This document shows positions 102 to 18,843 of a stretch of DNA of 25,855 bases, in pieces. A program made the position numbers and the translations under genes. The first letter of the stretch is position 1, and each line of letters starts with the position of its first letter. This stretch comes from a virus. The stretch covers positions 1 to 25,855 of the IMG/VR virus record IMGVR_UViG_3300044491_002568. One strand, given 5' to 3'. The notes beneath the pieces are model-generated. The model was given only the letters and a program-made list of their open reading frames with translations. It ran no database searches and was not told the DNA's origin.

Positions 102-887
102 ATGTTAACAATTGAAGATTATCTTGCTGAAAAAATGATGGCAGGCCAAAGAGGCTTAGATTATGAATTAAAAATTTATAATGCTATCAAACAATCAAGT
201 GTCAAATATTTTACACCTGGTGATAAACCAGCCGCCGGTTTTTCAAATCAAGGTGCTGGTGACATTGAAGGTAAGTTGCACGGCAAACCATTTAACATTG
301 AAGTAAAGTTATCTGCTGATGATCAAATGGGAGGAACGTCTTTTAGATATGATTACAAAACTAAAAAGTTTTCTGCCGTTAACACAATAGACCCTGATAC
401 AGAACAATTGCTTATGGATGCAGCTCAACAAAAATCAAGAGCTCTTGATGCTTATATTGACGCGGCTAGAAAATTAGAACCTGTACAATATCATAAAGAT
501 ATTTCGGGCGTTCCTATCAAAGTATCAAAAGCTGGACGTGACGAGTTAAAGACAAAGGGTCTACTCAAAGCCATAAACACTAAAATTATTACTGATGCTT
601 CTTACATTGGTAAACACTATAATAAAAAAGGTGTATACTATATTCAGATTGGAGGAGCTGGTCTTTTCTATATGGGTAGAAACATTTTTGATCTTCCCGT
701 TCCTAAACTTTCTGGTGAAATTCAAATCGAAGTAAGACTTGGTTTTTCTGGATCAAAGACAAAGTTGCCAGATGGAACAGAAGCAAGGTCAGCTGGCTTG
801 AGACTTATTGGAAGACTTAAAACAAAAGGTAAATCTCCTCACACTATTGATACCATAGAAGGTATTGAAAAACTTTTTACAAAATAA
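102..887 (+). CDS. PD-(D/E)xK-type nuclease-like conserved phage protein
   Basis: This 261-residue protein looks like the restriction-endonuclease-like fold. There is a Glu in the first helix (E22 in LDYELKIYNAI), then GAGDIEG with D54, then NIEVKLS with E67 and K69, matching the E...D...ExK metal site. The middle is helical and Lys/Ala-rich. The C-terminal half carries the conserved-looking string HYNKKGVYYIQIGGAGLFYMG. From memory, proteins of this kind are common conserved hypotheticals in marine T4-like phages. The N-terminus MLTIEDYLAEK aligns without gaps to the T4 capsid-targeting peptide MKTYQEFIAEA, ending in an LxE site at residues 8-10. It has no clear Shine-Dalgarno sequence and starts 4 nt after the preceding stop. 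Nuclease activity and packaging are inferences. Confidence 0.6.
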   Translation: MLTIEDYLAEKMMAGQRGLDYELKIYNAIKQSSVKYFTPGDKPAAGFSNQGAGDIEGKLHGKPFNIEVKLSADDQMGGTSFRYDYKTKKFSAVNTIDPDTEQLLMDAAQQKSRALDAYIDAARKLEPVQYHKDISGVPIKVSKAGRDELKTKGLLKAINTKIITDASYIGKHYNKKGVYYIQIGGAGLFYMGRNIFDLPVPKLSGEIQIEVRLGFSGSKTKLPDGTEARSAGLRLIGRLKTKGKSPHTIDTIEGIEKLFTK

Positions 888-6340: not shown

Positions 6341-6934
6341 ATGTCTAAAGCAGTTTTTACATTTGGTAGGATGAACCCTCCTACCATAGGACATGAAAAA
6401 CTGGTTAATAAAGTGAGAGCGGTTGCCCGTATGCATAAAGGTGACCCTCTCATCTATCTTTCTCATACACACAAAATTCCAAAAGACCCAATAGAATACC
6501 AAGACAAGGTAAAACTAGCAAAAAGAGCTTTTGGTAATATAGTGAAAATATCTAAAGCTAATACTATAATTAAAGTGATGCAAGAGCTTGAGAAAAAGTA
6601 TGATGAAGTTGTTTTAGTTGTTGGTTCAGATAGAGTTGAAGACTTTAAACAACTTTTGAGAAAATACAACGGCAAGGACTATTCGTTTGATACAATCGAT
6701 GTTGTATCAGCTGGTGAGCGTGACCCAGATGCAGATGATGTTTCAGGAATGTCAGCATCTAAAATGAGAGAATTAGCGTCTAATGAAGACTTAAAAGCAT
6801 TTAAGGAAGGTCTTCCTAGAAACCTGCAAAGAGATGCAGAAAATATTATGAAAATGGTAAGAAAAGGACTAAATTATGAACAATATAAAAGCGCGGGATA
6901 TGCAAGTATTCGAGATCCTGAGAGAGATCAGTGA
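6341..6934 (+). CDS. NMNAT/cytidylyltransferase-fold nucleotidyltransferase
   Basis: The N-terminus AVFTFGRMNPPTIGHEKLV has the [HT]xGH signature (T15-I-G-H18) of the HIGH-type nucleotidyltransferase fold. VVLVVGSDRVEDF follows at 90-102, and SGMSASKMRE (136-145) is the ISSTxxR-like phosphate-binding motif. Such enzymes transfer a nucleotidyl group to a phosphate, as in NAD, CoA or glycerol-phosphate metabolism. The substrate cannot be read from the sequence. Its 197 residues are typical for phage members. It lies downstream of the 6006 late promoter and overlaps the next gene by 59 nt. Confidence 0.8.
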   Translation: MSKAVFTFGRMNPPTIGHEKLVNKVRAVARMHKGDPLIYLSHTHKIPKDPIEYQDKVKLAKRAFGNIVKISKANTIIKVMQELEKKYDEVVLVVGSDRVEDFKQLLRKYNGKDYSFDTIDVVSAGERDPDADDVSGMSASKMRELASNEDLKAFKEGLPRNLQRDAENIMKMVRKGLNYEQYKSAGYASIRDPERDQ

Positions 6935-7479: not shown

Positions 7480-8004
7480 ATGAAAGCACTGGAAATGACA
7501 CTCATAGGGTTTGATGTTTCAAAACTAAAACCTGTGATTAGTGAACAAGCATTTAATCTACATTATAATCACATTTACAAAGATCATGTAGACAGATATA
7601 ATAAAGGTATCGGAGACTTTGCTTTTGATAAGGCAGGTGCATTTTTACATAGTCTTTATTTCGAGAATATAAGAGAGTTAAGACAAAACAATCTACCTAT
7701 CGGCAAGTCATTGAATACTATTAACATGAGATACGGTTCGTTTGAAAGATTTGTGACAACAATTTTAGACAAGTCACGTTCATTACAAGGTAATGGATGG
7801 ATTTTTATGAACACGAGTGGTTATGTAAACCTTATTCCTAATAATAGAATTGTTGATAATGTTGCAATGGTTATTGATTGTTGGGAACATGCATATATGT
7901 TTAATTTCGGAAATGATATTGAATCATATATTAAGTCACAATTATCAATTATCAATTGGGATTGTGTAAACGAGAGAATGCTTAAAAAACCAGAGAAACT
8001 ATAA
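7480..8004 (+). CDS. Fe/Mn superoxide dismutase-like protein
   Basis: The 174-residue protein has the four metal ligands of Fe/Mn superoxide dismutases in order. H28 is in NLHYNHIYKDHV (family EYHYGKHHQTYV), H57 in AFLHSLYFE (family VWNHTFYW), and D133 and H137 in IDCWEHAY, the family hallmark DVWEHAY. GNGWIFM matches the GSGWAWL strand. The second-sphere Tyr34 gateway position appears to be His36, and the protein is about 20 residues short of E. coli SodB. The fold and metal site are well supported, but dismutase activity is less certain. No signal peptide is present. The gene starts 4 nt after the previous stop and its end overlaps a late promoter. Confidence 0.8.
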   Translation: MKALEMTLIGFDVSKLKPVISEQAFNLHYNHIYKDHVDRYNKGIGDFAFDKAGAFLHSLYFENIRELRQNNLPIGKSLNTINMRYGSFERFVTTILDKSRSLQGNGWIFMNTSGYVNLIPNNRIVDNVAMVIDCWEHAYMFNFGNDIESYIKSQLSIINWDCVNERMLKKPEKL

Positions 8005-8007
8005 ATA
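8000..8007 (+). promoter_or_regulatory. T4-type late promoter TATAAATA
   Basis: This is a perfect T4 late consensus octamer lying over the stop codon of the SOD-like gene and only 4 nt before the ATG at 8012. The expected transcription start, about 5-7 nt after the octamer, falls on or just past that ATG. The mRNA could therefore be leaderless, or the gene could be read from upstream transcripts. The downstream gene pair looks like late capsid cargo. Confidence 0.6.
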
Positions 8008-8011
8008 CATC

Positions 8012-9244
8012 ATGTTAGATTTCAAATCCTTTATTGTAGAAGCAGCTGACGCGAAGCAAAATCTACATCTTACTCATGCTGACGAAGATTTATTCGAGCG
8101 AGGAGATGCTGGTGCTGAAGCTGCTATCGAATACATTACTGATTTTGCTCAGACTGTGGGTAAAGGCGAGGTTCAACTAACAGTTAAATGGGACGGTGCT
8201 CCAGCTATTTTTGCTGGATGGGATCCATTAGATGGTAAGTTTTTTGTTGGAACAAAGTCAGTGTTCAACGCATCTCCAAAAATTTATAAAACTCAAAAAG
8301 ACATTACTGATAATGAATCTGGTGGTAAGGCTACAAAGCTCAAAGTAGCATTGGAAGAATTACCAAAAGTAGGTATTCCTAAAAATACAGTTCTCCAGGG
8401 TGATATGATGTTTACCAAAGGGGATCAAAAGTATGAAACAATTGACAACCAAAGATTTATTACAGTACACCCAAACACAATAGTTTATGCTTGGCCTGTT
8501 GAGAGTGACATCGGCAAAAAAATCCGTAATGCTAACATGGGTATCATATGGCATACAACATATACTGGTAGAGGAAGTCTCCAAGATTACAGAGCTCGTT
8601 TCGGTGTAGATGTTTCAAAAATGAAACAAACAAGAACTTGTTGGATGGATGATGCTTATTTTAAAGGTGTAGATATTGCGTTCAGTGAATCAGAATACAG
8701 AGATCTTTTTTCCTTAACAATGAAAGCAAAGAAAAAAATTGGTGACTTTGATAAGATAGTTACAGTAATGAATTCTATTCCATCAAATGCAGTAGGCTCA
8801 GGTATTAAAACTTATATTAACTCTAAAATAAGAACCGGTAACTTGCCTGACCCAGCTATAGCATACAATGAATATATGGAATATGTTAAAAATTACTGGG
8901 AAGATAAAGTTATTGCAAAATTAAAGACAGATAAATCAAAGGAAGCAAAAAGAGCGGCGTTAAAACAATTAGTGTCGGATATTAATAATGTATCTCATGA
9001 GCTTAAAAACGCTTTTGAGTATGTTGATTTAATTACCAAAGCTAAGATGATTTTAATCACAAAGCTTAACTTAATAAATAACCAAAGAGCGTTTGTTCTT
9101 ACTTCAAAAGGTTTTAAGGTTACAGACCCTGAAGGTTATGTAGCTATTAATAGTAAAAAAGGTGAGGCTGTTAAATTTGTTGATAGATTGAATTTTTCTC
9201 ATTTTAACTTCTCCCAGGAATATATTAAAGGTTGGCAACGATGA
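8012..9244 (+). CDS. ligase-fold nucleotidyltransferase-like protein with capsid-targeting N-terminus
   Basis: The protein has 410 residues. The N-terminus MLDFKSFIVEA matches the T4 internal-protein capsid-targeting peptide MKTYQEFIAEA, with an IxE site before A11 for the prohead protease. Downstream are the motifs of covalent nucleotidyltransferases (DNA/RNA ligases, capping enzymes) in order: motif I KWDG (K59), a motif III-like LQGD (128-131) after KFFVGTK, motif IV EGYV (374-377), and motif V KFV (K388). Between them a helical insert spans about 190-350. I recall related marine-phage proteins as DUF6267 (number uncertain) with no assigned function. It has no good Shine-Dalgarno, a late promoter abuts its start, and its stop overlaps the next ATG (ATGA). 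A lysine-AMP intermediate and injection into the host are inferences. Confidence 0.75.
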   Translation: MLDFKSFIVEAADAKQNLHLTHADEDLFERGDAGAEAAIEYITDFAQTVGKGEVQLTVKWDGAPAIFAGWDPLDGKFFVGTKSVFNASPKIYKTQKDITDNESGGKATKLKVALEELPKVGIPKNTVLQGDMMFTKGDQKYETIDNQRFITVHPNTIVYAWPVESDIGKKIRNANMGIIWHTTYTGRGSLQDYRARFGVDVSKMKQTRTCWMDDAYFKGVDIAFSESEYRDLFSLTMKAKKKIGDFDKIVTVMNSIPSNAVGSGIKTYINSKIRTGNLPDPAIAYNEYMEYVKNYWEDKVIAKLKTDKSKEAKRAALKQLVSDINNVSHELKNAFEYVDLITKAKMILITKLNLINNQRAFVLTSKGFKVTDPEGYVAINSKKGEAVKFVDRLNFSHFNFSQEYIKGWQR

Positions 9245-11046
9245 CTACAGAATTTTATGCAGATTATATTAAAAAAACTACCTTCGACAAGGAATCACAT
9301 TCTGTAAAAGGTAAGTTTGACACTCCTTCAACTGAGCAAATAACAGAAGCAGCCACTGATGTAAAAAAGAAGCCAGCATCAAAGACTCCTAAGATGGAAG
9401 TTCCTGCTACTGAAATTCCCGAAGAAGATCTTGATGAAAAGGGTAAGGGTCTCTGGGCTAATATTCATGCTAAGCGCGCCCGTGGCGAAAAGCCTAACCC
9501 TCCTGGCCATCCTGATAGACCTTCAGCCGCTGATCTTAAAAGATCACAAAGCGAGGAGCTTCATGGTGATCAACAACACGGTGCTGTAGAAGAAAAGAAA
9601 TCACTGGCTTCGCTTAAAAACTCTAGTATGTTAGATGGCAAAGATAGAATCAAAAACATGGTTCAAAAAGTTAAAAAACCAAAACCTGTAGAGAAACAAG
9701 AAGAAGGTATTCTTGATGCAGTATCAAAAGTAGCTAGTAAAGCAGTGTCTGGTGTTAAGAATATGGCAGCAAAAAGAACTGCTACGCTAACAGGCAAAAA
9801 ACCTTCATATTCCGAAGAAACAGAAGACTCAATCACAGAGGCTACATTCAAAGTTGATGTTGATGGACTTCCAACTATGTATATTGATGGTTCATCTGCT
9901 GGTTCAATTAAAGCTCAGCTTCGCAAAAAGTTTAAAGATCCTAAAGCTGTTGTAAATGTAGAAAGAATTACATCTACTGAAAAGAAACAGGAGCTTCGTG
10001 CTAAAATGTCAGAAGACCAAGCAGCTATTGATGCTTATCTTAAAAAAGGTGGTACTATTAAAAAATTACCTCCCGCGCATGCTCGTAGTAGTTCAGACTT
10101 AGAAAAAGGTATTTCAGGTAGAGTTAGTACTGATACATTAAAGACTAAAGGCAAAGTCAAGTCTATGGAAGATGTAGAACAGGTAGATGAGATTTCATCA
10201 GAACTAGCTGGGAGAGCTCATAGTTCGGCAAGAAAACAAGTTGACTATAAAAAAACTACTCCTACTACAGCTAAAAAAAGTGATCAAGGTACAAAAGCAT
10301 TAGCTTATCATCAAAGAAAAGCTGTGAATCCTTCTCATACGGGTACATCATACAAAGGTTCACCTGGAGGTACAGATGTAGCTGCTGCTTATAAGTCTTC
10401 TTCAGAACCAGCAAGAAAGACCTCTGGCAAATATATCGATAAACTTAAAAAACAAGGAATAGATGTATCTGAAGAAGATAGAGTTGATGAAATTTCTAAT
10501 GCTTCAAAAAGATCATATGTAAGAGTTGCGGCAAGAGATGTAGCTCATCAAGGTGCTAAGGCTGAAAGAGGTGTTGCAAACAACGATCGAGAAGCTATTC
10601 GTGCTGCTGATAGAAAAAGAGATAATAGACTTAAAGGTATAGACAGAGCTACAAGTGGAATGCGTAACGAAGATGCTGAATCTGTAGATGAATTGAGTCG
10701 TGATACTCTTGGAAGTTATATCTCAAAAGCATCTGATGCATCAAAGTATAAAGGTATACCTATAAAGAAAGTTGATAACAGATATTCAGGTGTATATAAA
10801 GCTTCTAAAAAAATTGATAAAATGCGCGGTCACGTGGAAGAAGGTCAAGTGGAAGAATCACATGAAGATCAAAGAAGACATCTTAAAAAAGTTGGTAAAG
10901 GTGGATCTGTATCATACAGTGTATCAGGTAAAACTATGACTGGTGAATATGGAGGGTTGAAGAACAAAGGCGGCCGTTCTTATGCCATGGTTCATCATAA
11001 CACACATTCAGCCATGGTTCCATTACCTAATATCAAACACAAATAA
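9241..11046 (+). CDS. large lysine-rich repeat protein, probable internal head or structural protein
   Basis: The start is ATG 9241, overlapping the previous stop as ATGA. A TTG at 9232 in frame is less likely. The product is 601 residues, very rich in Lys, Ser, Ala and Glu, mostly disordered or helical, with no enzyme motif. It contains a module GLWANIHAKRARGEKPNPPG (about residues 70-90) that I recall from other marine phage proteins. Three related units follow, each opening with VDEIS or VDELS (about 315, 415 and 482) and running into short basic helices such as RDTLGSYISKAS. ITEA occurs at about 34-37 and 198-201, both good T4 gp21-type (L/I)xE cleavage sites. Composition, late context and cleavage sites suggest a capsid internal protein. 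Confidence 0.7.
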   Translation: MTTEFYADYIKKTTFDKESHSVKGKFDTPSTEQITEAATDVKKKPASKTPKMEVPATEIPEEDLDEKGKGLWANIHAKRARGEKPNPPGHPDRPSAADLKRSQSEELHGDQQHGAVEEKKSLASLKNSSMLDGKDRIKNMVQKVKKPKPVEKQEEGILDAVSKVASKAVSGVKNMAAKRTATLTGKKPSYSEETEDSITEATFKVDVDGLPTMYIDGSSAGSIKAQLRKKFKDPKAVVNVERITSTEKKQELRAKMSEDQAAIDAYLKKGGTIKKLPPAHARSSSDLEKGISGRVSTDTLKTKGKVKSMEDVEQVDEISSELAGRAHSSARKQVDYKKTTPTTAKKSDQGTKALAYHQRKAVNPSHTGTSYKGSPGGTDVAAAYKSSSEPARKTSGKYIDKLKKQGIDVSEEDRVDEISNASKRSYVRVAARDVAHQGAKAERGVANNDREAIRAADRKRDNRLKGIDRATSGMRNEDAESVDELSRDTLGSYISKASDASKYKGIPIKKVDNRYSGVYKASKKIDKMRGHVEEGQVEESHEDQRRHLKKVGKGGSVSYSVSGKTMTGEYGGLKNKGGRSYAMVHHNTHSAMVPLPNIKHK

Positions 11047-13005: not shown

Positions 13006-13562
13006 ACATTTTTGTATTAGATCGTAACCCTAAAAAAGCAGCTCAGCTTATGTGTGACAAGCATGTCGTTAAAATGATTGTAGAAAGCTGCCAGATTTTA
13101 TCTGCTGTGTTGGATAACAATTATGATCCAAATCTTAACAAATATGGTATCAAGCCGTCGGAACAGTTTGGAACAGCTGGTTATCCAAAAGCTCATTTTA
13201 AGCATCCATGTACTATGTGGGCAATGGAATCAGAAGGTAACTACAAGTGGCTTGTTAAACATTTGAGAGGTCTTTGTCTTGCATACAGCGATCGTTATAA
13301 TAAAGTTCATTCTATGGAAAGTCAACTAATGATTTTTGATAGCCAGTTACAATTTCTCAAGTTTGAAAAGAAACAACTAACTGAATTTGTTCAAGCAATG
13401 CCTGACAAATATAAAGATAAAGATGTGACAAAAGCTTATCAAAATTATTATAATATGGATAAGTTTACTTTTGCTAAATGGAAAAACGGAAAAGTACCTA
13501 CATGGTTTGTAGGTGCACCTCAATATAATATTGAATTGGAAGGAACGTATGCCACATTATAG
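13002..13562 (+). CDS. pyrimidine-dimer DNA glycosylase-like phage protein
   Basis: The 186-residue protein starts at GTG 13002 behind a strong CAGGAGGTAA. Conserved blocks are MNIFVLDRNPKKAAQLMCDKHVVKMIVE, FKHPCTMWAMES, NYKWLVKHLRGLCLAYSDRYNKVH and KWKNGKVPTWF near the end. I recall phage proteins with this opening annotated as pyrimidine-dimer glycosylase/endonuclease V-like, and the C-terminal PTWF parallels the PTWY of T4 DenV. The overall similarity to DenV is weak by eye, so the repair role is tentative. It is upstream of queD and overlaps it by 14 nt. Confidence 0.6.
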   Translation: MNIFVLDRNPKKAAQLMCDKHVVKMIVESCQILSAVLDNNYDPNLNKYGIKPSEQFGTAGYPKAHFKHPCTMWAMESEGNYKWLVKHLRGLCLAYSDRYNKVHSMESQLMIFDSQLQFLKFEKKQLTEFVQAMPDKYKDKDVTKAYQNYYNMDKFTFAKWKNGKVPTWFVGAPQYNIELEGTYATL

Positions 13563-13998
13563 TACTAAAACATATGGACATAACATTGGCTTATCAGCAG
13601 TGTTTCGTCAACCAAATGCAGACCATAGTCACTGTCACTTGTTACATGGTTACAGCTTAGGCTTTAAGTTTACATTTGGTTGTTCAGATCTTGACGACAA
13701 GAACTGGGCAGTTGACTTTGGTGGTCTAAAGCCACTGAAAGCTTGGTTAGAGGATAATTTTGATCATAAACTAGCACTAGATATTAATGATCCTTATCTT
13801 AAAACATTTCAAGAGCTTGAAGATTTAGATTTAGCTGAAATTAGAATATTTGACGGGGTAGGTGCTGAGATGTTTGCTTACCATGCTTGGGTGTATGCTG
13901 ATGAACTTATTCGTTCACACACAAATGGCCGTTGCTGGTGTGTGTCAGTTGAATGCTCAGAGCATGGAGCTAACAGCGCAATCTATACATCTGAATAG
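13549..13998 (+). CDS. queD: 6-carboxytetrahydropterin synthase QueD
   Basis: The enzyme converts dihydroneopterin triphosphate to 6-carboxy-5,6,7,8-tetrahydropterin, the second step to 7-deazaguanines. From ATG 13549 (behind GGAAGGAA) the protein has 149 residues. The tunnelling-fold landmarks are HSHCHLLHGYSL (residues 26-37), holding the zinc histidines and likely catalytic C29, then WAVDFGGLKPLKAWLEDNFDHKLALD with the catalytic DH, and VECSEHGANSAIY with substrate-binding E135. This is the first of five 7-deazaguanine-pathway genes in the window. The gene overlaps the preceding one and is followed by a coiled-coil gene before queE. Confidence 0.88.
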   Translation: MPHYSTKTYGHNIGLSAVFRQPNADHSHCHLLHGYSLGFKFTFGCSDLDDKNWAVDFGGLKPLKAWLEDNFDHKLALDINDPYLKTFQELEDLDLAEIRIFDGVGAEMFAYHAWVYADELIRSHTNGRCWCVSVECSEHGANSAIYTSE

Positions 13999-13999
13999 T

Positions 14000-14254
14000 A
14001 TGCAAGATAACAAAGTTATTGTCCTCAGTGAACTTATTGAGCAGAGGCTACGAAAAGAAAAAGAAATTGAATACTATCAAAATCAATTGATAGAATTTCA
14101 AAACAAGATTACACATTTACAAAAAGATGTGGATCTTACAAAGATTATCATTGATATCATACAATCTGAAAATATTATTGATATTCAAGATAAAGTAATT
14201 AAATCCATTCCTATAATAGGAGACAGTAAAGATGGAAGCCAAAGATCCAAGTAA
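14000..14254 (+). CDS. small coiled-coil protein
   Basis: The protein has 84 residues from ATG 14000, two bases after the queD stop. Residues 10-45 (ELIEQRLRKEKEIEYYQNQL onward) form a strong Lys/Glu/Gln coiled coil. An Ile/Asp-rich segment and a short polar tail follow. No Shine-Dalgarno is visible, so translation is probably coupled to queD. The C-terminus overlaps the small membrane protein gene by 23 nt. Function is unknown. Earlier in-frame starts lie inside queD and are unlikely. Confidence 0.65.
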   Translation: MQDNKVIVLSELIEQRLRKEKEIEYYQNQLIEFQNKITHLQKDVDLTKIIIDIIQSENIIDIQDKVIKSIPIIGDSKDGSQRSK

Positions 14255-14390
14255 GAGACACTTTTATATTAGTCTGGTAAAAAGTGTTATTAGAATTTTT
14301 GCAGGTGCAAGCTTAGCTTATGGAATGTTTCTTCCTGCAGGAGCCCTTTTCATTGCAGCAGAATTGTTTGGTATTGCCGAGGAGTTATAA
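14232..14390 (+). CDS. small membrane protein (52 aa)
   Basis: This short gene begins at ATG 14232 behind TAGGAGACAG and ends in TAA at 14388-14390, directly before the queE ATG. The product starts with a basic segment (MEAKDPSKRHFYISLVKSVIR) followed by one or two hydrophobic stretches, IFAGASLAYGMFLPAGALFIAAELFG. It is likely an inner-membrane protein with a cytoplasmic basic N-terminus. Good ribosome site, exact fit between neighbours and overlap coupling support it as a real gene. Function is unknown. Confidence 0.7.
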   Translation: MEAKDPSKRHFYISLVKSVIRIFAGASLAYGMFLPAGALFIAAELFGIAEEL

Positions 14391-15341
14391 ATGACAACTG
14401 ATAAAAAATACTACTATTCGGAAGTATTCAACTCTATTCAAGGAGAAGGATTGTATACTGGTGTTCACACACTATGGTTACGTTTCTTCCTTTGTAATCT
14501 ACAATGTGATGGCTTTGGCCAGATTGATCCTACAAATCCCGATACATATGAATTACCATATGCTGATTTTGATGCTTCGACTGTGAATAGAGTTGAAGAC
14601 TTACCAGTGTGGAATAAAGGTTGTGATAGTTCATACACATGGTCTAAGAAGTTTAAACATTTGATGGGTCATAAGACTGCTGAAGAGATTGTTGAAGTTA
14701 TTAGAGATGCTGCACGGACTGATTCTAATCCAGAAGGTTTGTTTAAACATCCTGTGTCTGGGCAAACTGCTCATATGTGTTTTACAGGTGGTGAGCCACT
14801 TATGAAGCATGCACAGAATGCATTTAGAGAGATCTATTGGTGGATGAGACATCATGAAAATGAAGCTTCATGTATTACATTTGAGACTAATGGTACACAA
14901 GCCTTTGCAGATGATCACAGAGAGTGGTTATTGAACAGAGGTACTTATAATACACCTATCTTTTTCTCAGTGAGTCCTAAGTTATGGACAGTAGCTGGTG
15001 AACAAGCAGACAAAGCTATCAAGCCAGATGTTATCAGCGACTATTGGCGAGTTGGCGAGTCTATTAATGTTAACCATCAAGGTCGTCCTAGTGGCCAACT
15101 CAAATTTGTAGTTGGAAATAAAGAAGAGCAGTGGGAAGAGATGGAAGAAGTTGTTGCTAAGATTAGAGAGCAGGTTGAATATGATAGATTCAACTGGCCT
15201 ATCTACATCATGCCAGTTGGTGCTACAGAAGAAGAGCAAACAGCTACAGCAGGTGAAGTTGCAGAAAAAGCTTTTAAAAGAGGCTATAATGTAAGTGCAA
15301 GAGTACATGTATATCTGTTTGGGAATAAGATTGGTACATGA
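14391..15341 (+). CDS. queE: 7-carboxy-7-deazaguanine synthase QueE (radical SAM)
   Basis: QueE rearranges 6-carboxytetrahydropterin to 7-carboxy-7-deazaguanine using S-adenosylmethionine and a 4Fe-4S cluster. YYSEVFNSIQGEGLYTG is the family start, followed by LRFFLCNLQC with C35 and C39. The third cluster cysteine, normally three residues on, is C78 in GCDSSYTW, matching E. coli CDTKHTW. A 38-residue insert thus splits the CxxxCxxC motif. CFTGGEPL is the SAM-binding GGEP motif, and FETNGTQ and FSVSPKL are further hallmarks. Its 316 residues exceed the usual 210-240 because of this and other insertions. I recall the split motif from other marine phages. It starts right after the small membrane protein and overlaps the next gene by 4 nt. 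Confidence 0.9.
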   Translation: MTTDKKYYYSEVFNSIQGEGLYTGVHTLWLRFFLCNLQCDGFGQIDPTNPDTYELPYADFDASTVNRVEDLPVWNKGCDSSYTWSKKFKHLMGHKTAEEIVEVIRDAARTDSNPEGLFKHPVSGQTAHMCFTGGEPLMKHAQNAFREIYWWMRHHENEASCITFETNGTQAFADDHREWLLNRGTYNTPIFFSVSPKLWTVAGEQADKAIKPDVISDYWRVGESINVNHQGRPSGQLKFVVGNKEEQWEEMEEVVAKIREQVEYDRFNWPIYIMPVGATEEEQTATAGEVAEKAFKRGYNVSARVHVYLFGNKIGT

Positions 15342-15766
15342 AACTAAAGTCAAAAATATACTTCGATTATAATGACATCCTTACTATGTGTCATAACTTA
15401 GAAGACAAAGTATCAGAGATGCGTCCTGACTTAATTGTTGGTGTGGTAAGAGGTGGATTGCTTCCTGCAGTTCACCTCTCACATGCACTCTCAGTACCTA
15501 TGATATGTTTACAATGGCAAACAAGAGATGGTGAAGTTAAACAAGATATTAAAGAGATAAAAGATGCTATAAGATCAAACAAAACTATTGTGTTTGTTGA
15601 TGATATTAATGACAGTGGTAGAACATTTGAAGAACTTAGGGGTGAGTATCAAGAAGGTAAGTTTGTTAGTTTGGTAGAAAGAGCATCATCAACTTTTATC
15701 ACAGATTCAACTTCGTTACGAATAGATGACCAAAGGTGGATTGTGTTCCCATGGGAAAAAGATTAA
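15338..15766 (+). CDS. type I phosphoribosyltransferase
   Basis: The 142-residue protein has the PRPP-binding signature VFVDDINDSGRTFEEL and an upstream LIVGVVRGGLLPAVHLSHAL, the pyrophosphate-binding loop region of purine phosphoribosyltransferases (Gpt/Hpt group). Such enzymes attach a base to PRPP to form a nucleotide. The base specificity hood cannot be read here. It starts at the ATGA overlap with queE and sits in the 7-deazaguanine cluster, so salvage of guanine or a deazapurine is possible but unproven. Its 3' end overlaps the lipoprotein gene by 16 nt. Confidence 0.8.
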   Translation: MKLKSKIYFDYNDILTMCHNLEDKVSEMRPDLIVGVVRGGLLPAVHLSHALSVPMICLQWQTRDGEVKQDIKEIKDAIRSNKTIVFVDDINDSGRTFEELRGEYQEGKFVSLVERASSTFITDSTSLRIDDQRWIVFPWEKD

Positions 15767-15909
15767 TAATAAATTTTCTATTAGTTTTTAGTTTGAGTGG
15801 ATGTGTTACATCTGTTGAATTGGTAGCTGAAATGTATAAAGAATGTTTAATTAGAGATGGAGAAACTTCATGCGATTCATTAAAAAAAGCTTTTTCACAC
15901 TTGTCTTAA
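15751..15909 (+). CDS. small lipoprotein (52 aa)
   Basis: From ATG 15751 to TAA 15907-15909 the frame encodes MGKRLIINFLLVFSLSGC and then 34 more residues. This is a textbook lipoprotein signal: Lys/Arg start, hydrophobic core and lipobox LSGC with C18 as the lipidated residue. The mature part has two further cysteines and is mostly helical. It overlaps the phosphoribosyltransferase gene by 16 nt and the next exported-protein gene by 40 nt. The nested arrangement of a small lipoprotein with another exported protein recalls spanin pairs, but the second protein has no inner-membrane anchor plus coiled coil, so I do not call it a spanin. Confidence 0.7.
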   Translation: MGKRLIINFLLVFSLSGCVTSVELVAEMYKECLIRDGETSCDSLKKAFSHLS

Positions 15910-16199
15910 TCAGCTTATCAAGTTATGCCTTTGCATCTGAAGGTCAGAATTGTATCTACACAAACCATATTACTTATAACAATAACGGTGATGTTATAGA
16001 CTCTAGACAAATCTATAATTGTTATACACCAATCCCAGATATAGTGATTGAATCAGTACATAAGGAAGATGTTATTTTATTAGAAAATAATGACAATCCT
16101 TCCTATAATAATAATGTCCAACAAACTTCCCCTGCAGGAGACTTTGTTGGAATGGCTCTGTTGTGGGGTCTCTTAACTGCAGGAAATGGCAATAGGTAA
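15870..16199 (+). CDS. secreted/periplasmic protein with signal peptide
   Basis: The 109-residue product opens with a Sec signal peptide: MRFIKKSFFTLVLISLSSYAFA, cleavage likely after A22 before SEG. The mature part has C28 and C51, which could form a disulphide, around NHITYNNNGDVIDSRQIYNC. An Asn-rich linker follows, then a hydrophobic C-terminal stretch DFVGMALLWGLLTAG. No family is recognised. It is the middle gene of three consecutive exported proteins, overlapping the lipoprotein gene and followed after 11 nt by the LPP20-like gene. It probably acts in the periplasm or at the outer membrane. Confidence 0.7.
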   Translation: MRFIKKSFFTLVLISLSSYAFASEGQNCIYTNHITYNNNGDVIDSRQIYNCYTPIPDIVIESVHKEDVILLENNDNPSYNNNVQQTSPAGDFVGMALLWGLLTAGNGNR

Positions 16200-16210
16200 G
16201 GAGCCTAATA

Positions 16211-16846
16211 ATGAAAAACTTTGTAATTATCGCAGCAAGTACATTTGTACTTGGTGCTTGTTCTAGTAACCAACCAACTAAGATGATGTTAACTGATCCA
16301 GTACAGTATAACACTTTAAAAGTTGAGACACAGGTAGATCTTATTCCTAAATGGTATCTTAATCATCCTAAGACAGATAATACTATCTATTCATCTGGTA
16401 CATCAGTGACACCTGATATGCAGCTAGCTGTAGACATTGCTATCTTAAATGCTAAGACTACTCTTGCAGATCGAATCAACGGACGACTGTCTTCGAAGAC
16501 TAAAAACTTTGTTACACGTATTGGATCAAATGATCTTGACGCGGCTGTAGCTATGGACATTCAGAAAGTAACAGTTAACCTCATCGCTGATGTTGATGTA
16601 GCTGGATATGCAGTAGAGAATACGAAAATTGTACAGGACGGACCTCAGTATAGAGCATATGTATTGTTAGGTTATTCAGACGAAGAAGCAAATAAAATTA
16701 TTATTAATCGTCTACGTAAAGATAATATGCTTTTGGATAAAATTAAGGCGACAACAGCTTATAAAGATCTAGAGGAAAGTGTTGCTGTTAAGAAAGAGCA
16801 AGATCTTAACGAAATGGAAATTATTGTGAAAGGATTGGGACAATAG
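16211..16846 (+). CDS. LPP20-like lipoprotein
   Basis: The 211-residue protein begins MKNFVIIAASTFVLGACSS, a lipoprotein signal with lipobox LGAC and lipidated C17. The segment IPKWYLNHP...IYSSGTSVTPDMQLAVDIAILNAKTTLADRI fits the LPP20 pattern (P-x-W, then a glycine strand, then an Ala-rich helix with A...A...La). A beta-strand, DGPQYRAYVLLGYS, and a helical tail follow. LPP20-type lipoproteins are bacterial envelope proteins of poorly known function. AAGGAG precedes the start, and folE follows 1 nt after the stop. As a phage gene it may remodel the host envelope, for example superinfection exclusion or lysis, which is speculative. Confidence 0.75.
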   Translation: MKNFVIIAASTFVLGACSSNQPTKMMLTDPVQYNTLKVETQVDLIPKWYLNHPKTDNTIYSSGTSVTPDMQLAVDIAILNAKTTLADRINGRLSSKTKNFVTRIGSNDLDAAVAMDIQKVTVNLIADVDVAGYAVENTKIVQDGPQYRAYVLLGYSDEEANKIIINRLRKDNMLLDKIKATTAYKDLEESVAVKKEQDLNEMEIIVKGLGQ

Positions 16847-16847
16847 T

Positions 16848-17549
16848 ATGAGTAAAGATATTAAGGTATCTGAGAAGATTATCGAAAAGCTTAGGAAAGA
16901 TGGAACTCGCTTCTGGGCTGGTGACAACATTCATACATATGTGAATGATGATACCAAGAATGCTTTAATTGATGAAGCTACGTCGGCATTCGAAGGTGTA
17001 CTTGATGCCTTACTTGTTGACAGAGAGAACGATCCTAATAGTATGGACACAGCTCGTCGTATCGCTAAGATGTATTATAACGAGATCTTTGCAGGCCGAT
17101 ATGAGGCTCCTCCTAAGGTGACAGCGTTTCCTAATGATGATCCTTCACAGCGGTTTGCTGGTCTTATGAATGTAAGAGCTGAACTACGTTCTATGTGTTC
17201 ACATCACCATCAACCAGTAAAAGCTATTGCGTTTATTGGTATTATCCCTTCTACTCGAGTGATTGGCTTATCTAAGTATGCTCGTATTGCTCAGTGGTGT
17301 GCACGTCGAGGTACTCTACAAGAGGAGCTTACACGAGACATTGCAGCTGAGATCATGAAGCATACTGGTACAGAAGATGTAGCTGTATATGTTCAGGGTA
17401 CGCATGGTTGTATGGAGAACAGAGGTGTCTGTGCACATTCATCTCTTACACAGACTTCTGTACTACATGGTCAGTTCTATAATCCTTCAGTTAAGAATGA
17501 ATGGATGTCACAAGTTAAGTTGCAATTTGATTCAGTAGGAGGATTCTAA
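16848..17549 (+). CDS. folE: GTP cyclohydrolase I
   Basis: FolE opens GTP to dihydroneopterin triphosphate, the first step toward 7-deazaguanine. The 233-residue protein carries the zinc ligands C117 and H120 in MCSHHHQPVK (E. coli CEHHFV) and C188 in THGCMENRGV (E. coli VHYCVKARG). VIGLSKYARIAQWCARR matches the VIGLSKINRIVQFFAQR block, and LQEELTRDIA and the SSLTQTS region complete the core. The N-terminus carries the helical YVNDDTKNALIDEATSAFEG region. The gene joins its downstream neighbour by a one-base overlap (TAATG). Order in this cluster is queD, queE, folE, a PTPS-like gene and dpdA. Confidence 0.93.
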   Translation: MSKDIKVSEKIIEKLRKDGTRFWAGDNIHTYVNDDTKNALIDEATSAFEGVLDALLVDRENDPNSMDTARRIAKMYYNEIFAGRYEAPPKVTAFPNDDPSQRFAGLMNVRAELRSMCSHHHQPVKAIAFIGIIPSTRVIGLSKYARIAQWCARRGTLQEELTRDIAAEIMKHTGTEDVAVYVQGTHGCMENRGVCAHSSLTQTSVLHGQFYNPSVKNEWMSQVKLQFDSVGGF

Positions 17550-17992
17550 TGGGTTATGCAAGTGATATGGCAGCTGATGCTAAAGATGATAACAATAAAC
17601 GTATTAGAAATAATATGCTAAGCAATGCTGTTAAAACTATTTGGGTTACGTTCCAGCGTGAAGGTATTCACAAATACCCAGCTGCTCTTGATGATCCTAA
17701 ACTAGCTGAAGTTAGTTTTTTAGGTTATCCTCATCGCCATATGTTTCATTTCAAAGTAGAGATTGAGGTGTTTCATGATGATAGAGATATTGAGTTTATT
17801 TTGTTTAAGCGGTGGTTGGAATCATTGTATGCAGGTGATGTTTTGCAACTTGATTACAAGTCATGTGAAATGATTTCTGATGACTTAGCAGCACACATTA
17901 CTAATCAATATCCTGGGCGCTCTATGACTATTACAGTGTCTGAAGATGGAGAGAATGGTGCAACTGCTCAATATACATGGAAGGATGTCTAA
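17549..17992 (+). CDS. QueD/PTPS-like tunnelling-fold paralogue
   Basis: The 147-residue protein has the outline of 6-pyruvoyl-tetrahydropterin synthases but with altered motifs. FLGYPHRHMFHFKVEIEV stands where QueD has HxHGHNYxVxV, HDDRDIEFILFKRWLE where it has GMVxDFxxLK, and YKSCEMISDDLAAHI where it has PTxENLAxWI. SEDGENGATAQY matches the closing VxET...AxY strand. The usual catalytic cysteine before the histidines is not obvious, so it may be non-catalytic or have another substrate. It is fused in translation to both neighbours (TAATG on each side), between folE and dpdA, which ties it to deazaguanine DNA modification. I recall homologues in other phages without assigned function. Confidence 0.65.
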   Translation: MGYASDMAADAKDDNNKRIRNNMLSNAVKTIWVTFQREGIHKYPAALDDPKLAEVSFLGYPHRHMFHFKVEIEVFHDDRDIEFILFKRWLESLYAGDVLQLDYKSCEMISDDLAAHITNQYPGRSMTITVSEDGENGATAQYTWKDV

Positions 17993-18843
17993 TGCATTTT
18001 TGTCATATTATTCCTACACCTCATTTAGATATGGTTAGTGGTCGTCCTACACATCTAGTTCTTGCTCACTTGATTGAGGAAGATGATGAGTATGTAAACT
18101 ATTATATCGAACAGAAAGAGAAGTACGGATGTACTATCATCATGGATAACTCTGCTTTTGAAATGTATAAGCAAGGCAGAGATATGTATGATCCTGATAA
18201 ACTAATGGACATGGGTAAGAAAGTTAAAGCAGATTATATTGTGATGACTGACTATCCTGGTCAAGAGGCTTCTGAGACTATTGCTAAAGCTTTTGAACAA
18301 GCTCCTGTGTTTAAGGAAGCAGGGTTTGGAACATTCTTCGTACCTCAATCTTTGATTGGCAACATTGAAGAACTGACATTGTGTTTTGATTGGGCTGCAA
18401 GACATCCTGAGATTGTAGATTACATTGGTGTATCTATTCTTGCTATTCCTAATGGTTATGGTGTTGAGAAAAACAACAAGCTACAAAGGTTTCTGTCTCG
18501 CTGGAAGTTTATGGGTGAGCTCAAAGAACGTGGTATTCTTGACATGATTAACGCTAATGGTCAGAAAGTACACTTCTTAGGTATGGTTGATGGTCCTAAT
18601 GAAATTAGTCTTCTAAAGGAGTATAATGCTTATATCGATACATGGGATTCGTCAGCTGCATCTTGGTTAGGGTTACATGCTGGCGAAGGCTTTGACGGAT
18701 CACCTACAGGCCGCGTGGCAGGTAAGTATGAAGAAGAAGTAGATTTCAATTTTGTTACTGAAAATGTTAACAACATTGAACTCGCAATTATGAATATGGA
18801 TTACATTGATGATCTAGTGGAGAAGTATTATGGCAGATATTAA
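17992..18843 (+). CDS. dpdA: DpdA-like 7-deazaguanine DNA transglycosylase
   Basis: The 283-residue protein is a member of the tRNA-guanine transglycosylase superfamily. MDNSAFEMY holds D52, the general-base Asp position (TGT DSGGFQ). MTDYPGQE (D87), FFVPQS, IGVS (146-149), HFLGMVDGP (194-202, TGT HYLMGVG) and the nucleophile region DTWDSSAASWLG (D217, D219) follow along a TIM barrel. Phage DpdA enzymes replace guanine in DNA with a 7-deazaguanine base, protecting it from restriction. The start is ATG 17992 at TAATG, and an upstream ATG at 17977 is inside the preceding gene. It completes the modification cluster with folE, queD and queE. Confidence 0.85.
   Translation: MHFCHIIPTPHLDMVSGRPTHLVLAHLIEEDDEYVNYYIEQKEKYGCTIIMDNSAFEMYKQGRDMYDPDKLMDMGKKVKADYIVMTDYPGQEASETIAKAFEQAPVFKEAGFGTFFVPQSLIGNIEELTLCFDWAARHPEIVDYIGVSILAIPNGYGVEKNNKLQRFLSRWKFMGELKERGILDMINANGQKVHFLGMVDGPNEISLLKEYNAYIDTWDSSAASWLGLHAGEGFDGSPTGRVAGKYEEEVDFNFVTENVNNIELAIMNMDYIDDLVEKYYGRY

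Follow-up and report, generated by a model that had tools for sequence, protein, structure and literature searches.

What is the role of a phage protein that belongs to a family without assigned function, begins like the internal proteins of the T4 head and carries the motifs of a ligase? This question is raised by the open reading frame (ORF) at positions 8012-9244 of IMGVR_UViG_3300044491_002568, an IMG/VR viral record which, at its full length of 25,855 bases, is referred to here as the window. The window is a fragment of a T4-like phage, as judged from its genes for a UvsX-like recombinase and an RNase H-like exonuclease. The encoded protein belongs to the Pfam family DUF6267 (PF19782), which it matches with residues 17-402 (E 1.5e-87; 294.9 bits against a curated cut-off of 27; model positions 1-374 of 376). 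It also matches PHROG 455, to which no function is assigned either, and DUF6267 corresponds to the cyanophage cluster T4-GC 71. By tblastn, the family was found in 465 phage records, mainly of Synechococcus and Prochlorococcus myoviruses, and the closest named relative of the window protein is encoded by the Methylophilales phage Melnitz (42% identity). Hundreds of viral contigs also carry the family. NCBIfam holds no family for the protein, PADLOC assigned it to no defence family and a literature search on DUF6267 retrieved no paper. What is new here is the assignment of a fold and of a leader to this family. Taken as a whole, it is moderately probable that the protein is a packaged, active ligase-type nucleotidyltransferase, the substrate of which is left open. 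The parts of the gene on which this reading is based are the following.

8012-9244, plus strand: DUF6267 ORF of 410 amino acids, predicted ligase-fold nucleotidyltransferase with a putative capsid-targeting leader
8012-8041, plus strand: residues 1-10, leader MLDFKSFIVE, with the cut predicted between E10 and A11; fits the IPIII determinants
8186-8197, plus strand: motif I, KWDG, with K59 as the predicted AMP-accepting lysine; K59, D61 and G62 invariant
8393-8404, plus strand: motif III, LQGD (residues 128-131), within the model strand 126-135; Q129, G130 and D131 invariant
8687-9076, plus strand: purely helical insert (residues about 226-355) that separates motif III from motif IV, from the secondary structure of the model
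9131-9142, plus strand: motif IV, EGYV (residues 374-377); E374, G375 and V377 invariant
9173-9187, plus strand: motif V, KFVDR (residues 388-392); K388 and R392 invariant

The structure of the protein was predicted with AlphaFold2 from the family alignment (mean predicted local distance difference test score, pLDDT, of 90.6), and Foldseek's top 1000 PDB chains were re-aligned with VIA-align 2. Covalent nucleotidyltransferase ligases account for 49 of the 50 VIA-align 2 entries listed. The top match among them is a Naegleria RNA ligase (Z 9.4, 187 residues, 3.8 Å); further Z scores are 8.3 for a fungal tRNA ligase, 7.8 for REL1, 7.7 for T4 Rnl1 and 7.5 for Rnl2, and DNA ligases come next with values of 6 to 7. 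In the single unrelated entry, the match is helical and covers 71 residues (Z 6.5). When the PDB was searched by sequence, neither the protein nor the family alignment retrieved a ligase, and all hits were attributable to chance. Judged from the model, the window protein very probably adopts the nucleotidyltransferase fold of the ligase superfamily and is closest to ATP-dependent RNA ligases.

The initial annotation had proposed a ligase fold, which the matches of the model to RNA ligases, including both T4 enzymes, bear out. It had also named four motifs, and K59-W-D-G, L128-Q-G-D131, E374-G-Y-V and K388-F-V indeed lie where it placed them, in the order I, III, IV and V of the covalent nucleotidyltransferase (ligase/capping) superfamily. 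In an alignment of 84 family members, which share 34-71% identity with the window protein, the residues K59, D61, G62 and P64 (KWDGAP), Q129-G130-D131, E374, G375, V377, K388 and R392 are invariant. Because the key residues of all four motifs are among these, the motifs go beyond a chance resemblance. Moreover, E374 and K388 are 14 residues apart, and the gap from EGYVAV to K-I-K in T4 Rnl1 is 13. The motifs were assigned by their order and strand position, since a residue-by-residue structural equivalence is not readable from the alignment. Catalytic activity of the window protein appears likely.

The second part of the question concerns the N-terminus. In T4, the capsid-targeting sequence of IPIII consists of the first ten residues, of which mainly positions 4 and 7 serve targeting and positions 8 and 10 processing, and the cleavage motif of gp21 is (L/I)-x-E (PMC9026906). 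The window protein agrees with every mapped determinant of IPIII (F4, F7, I8 and E10, followed by A11), so that the leader MLDFKSFIVE-A, which had been noticed initially from the sequence, stands, and it is conserved in relatives. At least 90% of the 84 aligned members keep E10, although the model shows residues 1-12 as disordered (pLDDT under 50). Among 93 family members placed on a tree, 72 have a canonical leader, 15 a partial one that keeps L/I-x-E and six none, which means that 87 of the 93 are canonical or partial. The state of the leader requires a minimum of 8 changes on this tree, compared with 20.1 for shuffled labels. For comparison, with counts pooled, about 0.3% of internal methionines fit the leader pattern. 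The cyanophage isolates S-PM2, S-SZBM1, S-CRM01, S-8S53 and S-SM1 account for five of the six members that have no leader. Both Melnitz and the Stenotrophomonas phage DLP6 encode a DUF6267 protein with the leader.

Does such a leader predict packaging? In the first 150 kb of T4, the simple leader pattern matches at the annotated starts of IPII, IPIII, Alt, gp24 and gp2. All of these are head or injected proteins, namely internal proteins, the gp21-cleaved head protein gp24 and gp2, which protects the injected DNA ends. As IPII, IPIII and Alt shaped the pattern, only gp24 and gp2 provide independent support. In the cyanophage S-CREM2, seven of 214 proteins match, and the published virion proteome (PMC10665884) contains five of these seven, namely the SAM hydrolase, the kinase, the cytidylyltransferase, gp13 and gp136 (hypergeometric p 0.0076). 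The Cas9-like virion protein gp12 of S-CREM2 carries the stretch FASFMAEAA about 18 residues in. The authors of that study left open whether the virion enzymes are packaged or co-purify (PMC10665884). Furthermore, the kinase of S-CRM01, reported in virions (PMC10665884), begins with MISFDQFLSE, the S-SM1 virion protein T4-GC190 (PMC3037559) with MKKFSAFLNEA, and the virion list of S-SZBM1 includes a leader-bearing cytidylyltransferase (MRFRQFIIEA; PMC9146016). The leaderless DUF6267 protein of S-SZBM1, whose gene adjoins that of the cytidylyltransferase, is absent from this list (PMC9146016). A literature search on capsid-targeting sequences and cyanophages yielded a T4 review only. These data suggest that non-structural virion enzymes of S-CREM2 and S-CRM01 with leaders of the type M..F..FL.E are truly packaged and are not contaminants. 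A T4-type capsid-targeting leader on the window protein is supported by the conservation in the family and by the published virion proteomes of related phages, and packaging of the protein appears likely.

Three further features of the window bear on this reading.

102-887, plus strand: second leader-bearing ORF (MLTIEDYLAE; 261 amino acids, no Pfam family), predicted HhaI-like PD-(D/E)xK nuclease fold, candidate partner
6341-6934, plus strand: NMNAT/cytidylyltransferase-like gene (PF01467, E 6.2e-6; phrog_3041, E 5.7e-66), conserved DUF6267 neighbour, no leader in the window phage
8000-8007, plus strand: TATAAATA, late-promoter-like octamer of doubtful role, found at the same distance of 4 nt ahead of the ATG in close relatives

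Relatives of the ORF at 102-887 begin with MLTFKSYLSE, MKSFKQYLNE or similar sequences, and E22, D54 and E67-x-K69 are invariant in this family. Its model (pLDDT 85) was best re-aligned with the HhaI endonuclease (Z 8.3, 177 residues), and the next row has a Z score of 4.0. DUF6267 is also present on 11 of the 15 contigs with a relative of this ORF, in several cases directly downstream of the nuclease gene. Thus, one leader occurs on two unrelated folds, a ligase-like and an HhaI-like one, as would be expected of a targeting signal. A packaged restriction-type nuclease would, if true, be a finding in its own right. An HhaI-type methylase was considered as a constant companion of the nuclease and rejected, since a C5-methylase was found in 3 of the 21 records, which include several fragments. 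In Melnitz, genes 5 and 15 are of interest here: the phage encodes an annotated HhaI-type methylase and, directly upstream of DUF6267, a protein with a leader (MQGFKTFLSEA) for which no sequence relationship to the window ORF at 102-887 was detectable. The window itself contains QueD-like, QueE-like and GTP cyclohydrolase genes at 13513-17549, which are parts of the 7-deazaguanine pathway, and the ORF at 17977-18843 resembles, by eye only, a DpdA-type transglycosylase. It is a speculation that DNA modification could shield the phage from its own packaged nuclease.

Of the 145 loci whose downstream sequence spans 2.5 kb or more, 111 have the NMNAT-like gene near DUF6267, the flanks being searched both ways; in the window it lies upstream. 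In S-PM2, and only there among the loci examined, DUF6267 and the cytidylyltransferase are fused to a protein of 591 amino acids. The fusion is a single ORF in LN828717 and is annotated as two genes in NC_006820, a difference due to a genuine frameshift or to an error in sequencing. An identity of DUF6267 with the virion "cytidylyltransferase" T4-GC190 was also considered and rejected, because in S-SM1 GC190 is the adjoining gene and DUF6267 is GC71.

The protein had also been called late-expressed in the initial annotation on account of a perfect TATAAATA. The octamer is present, with one plus-strand copy in the window compared with about 1.7 expected per strand. With the spacing of T4 late promoters, transcription would begin right at the ATG. 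Since the octamer occurs at chance frequency and its position 4 nt from the ATG is awkward, it was rejected as proof of late expression, which is not established. The gene directly upstream (7480-8004) encodes a protein that matches the C-terminal domain of Fe/Mn superoxide dismutases (E 1.2e-15) and, more weakly, the N-terminal domain (4.6e-5). Downstream, at 9232-11046, lies a gene for a low-complexity protein of 604 amino acids with repeated ITEA- and VDEIS-type stretches resembling cut sites of the prohead protease; by its sequence, it is possibly a core or precursor protein.

How might the window protein act? We infer that it is packaged, cleaved by a gp21-type protease and injected. The leader would load the protein into the prohead core, where the protease would cut after E10, and the mature enzyme starting at A11 would be kept in the head and enter the cell with the phage DNA. 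There, a lysine-AMP adduct would be formed at K59, and broken RNA, for instance a tRNA cut by a host defence, or nicked DNA would be sealed or adenylated before the phage genes are expressed. The enzyme would probably act beside the nuclease with the leader that this region also encodes. That its task is the sealing of RNA is possible, but less likely than not.

Several observations weigh against this scheme. Foldseek alone gave no E value under 0.001 against the PDB, with a nick-sealing RNA ligase third in rank, and hhalign comparisons with T4 Rnl2 (31 sequences) and with single-sequence Rnl1 and gp30 remained below a probability of 2%, which is not significant. For this reason, the link to the ligases rests on the structure and on the order and spacing of the motifs, and the protein is not classed as Rnl1 or Rnl2. 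Motif III has a D in place of E and motif V no second lysine, both departures from known ligases; moreover, the protein is devoid of a known ligase C-terminal domain, and the chain beyond motif V is too short for an OB domain. As to packaging, S-SZBM1 as a whole shows no enrichment (one of five leader matches detected in the virion, p 0.53), no virion proteome was found for any phage with a leader-bearing DUF6267, and no prohead protease gene is present in the window, which is the whole record. Finally, the leaderless cyanophage proteins keep the catalytic residues; therefore, packaging is not essential to the function.

These leaderless homologs, the position of the genes among replication genes and the missing DUF6267 in the S-SZBM1 virion list are what would be expected of an active ligase-like enzyme that is confined to the infected cell and serves ordinary early or middle nucleic-acid repair, its leader likeness being incidental or otherwise used. 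However, E10 is conserved within a disordered tail, and unrelated proteins, several of them detected in virions, carry the same leader, which makes this explanation unlikely. It is still less probable that the target of a packaged nucleotidyltransferase is not a nucleic-acid end and that the enzyme, in conjunction with its NMNAT-like neighbour, modifies a protein or a small molecule with AMP (or by using NAD). In favour of this, the NMNAT-like gene is frequently near and fused in S-PM2, the nucleic-acid-binding C-terminal domain of known ligases is missing and the helical insert is unusual; against it, the top structural matches are polynucleotide ligases without exception. A role in the prohead core or in morphogenesis, with a ligase fold that is vestigial and with processing during head maturation, has precedents in the T4 core proteins with gp21 sites, but it is hard to reconcile with invariant catalytic-type residues and with the leaderless versions retained by cyanophages, and we give it very little credence.

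The proposed packaged ligase-type enzyme provides a fold and a testable mechanism for a family without assigned function that is widespread in marine T4-like phages. In addition, enzymes that were repeatedly reported in cyanophage virion proteomes and were suspected contaminants there are suggested to be deliberately packaged via a T4-type leader. It is tempting, but still tentative, to propose that marine T4-like phages use a common detachable ten-residue leader for loading a modular enzyme payload into the head, and that the cargo can be predicted from sequence alone. This payload would comprise the DUF6267 enzyme, the HhaI-like nuclease, NMNAT-like proteins, the protein kinase, the SAM hydrolase and the Cas9-like nuclease, and once injected, these proteins would cut, seal and reprogramme ahead of gene expression. 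For abundant ocean phages, the set of injected proteins could thereby be predicted from sequence.

Among the known systems, ATP-dependent RNA ligases (Naegleria Rnl5-type, fungal tRNA ligase, T4 Rnl1/Rnl2) have the fold of the nucleotidyltransferase domain and the motif order in common with the window protein and, like it, need no OB domain after motif V. The window protein differs from them in having no detectable sequence similarity, the D in motif III, one motif V lysine and a helical insert of about 130 residues between motifs III and IV. T4 IPII, IPIII and Alt share with it the ten-residue N-terminal leader with aromatic or hydrophobic residues at positions 4 and 7 and the (L/I)-x-E cut site, whereas the mature protein is unrelated to them and its packaging and cleavage are predicted. 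The cytidylyltransferase/NMNAT-like protein T4-GC 190, which was found in virions (PMC3037559, PMC9146016, PMC10665884), has an unrelated fold (HIGH superfamily), and the window copy (6341) has no leader. However, T4-GC 190 is the neighbour or fusion partner of DUF6267, and in S-SM1, S-SZBM1 and S-CREM2 it carries a similar leader.
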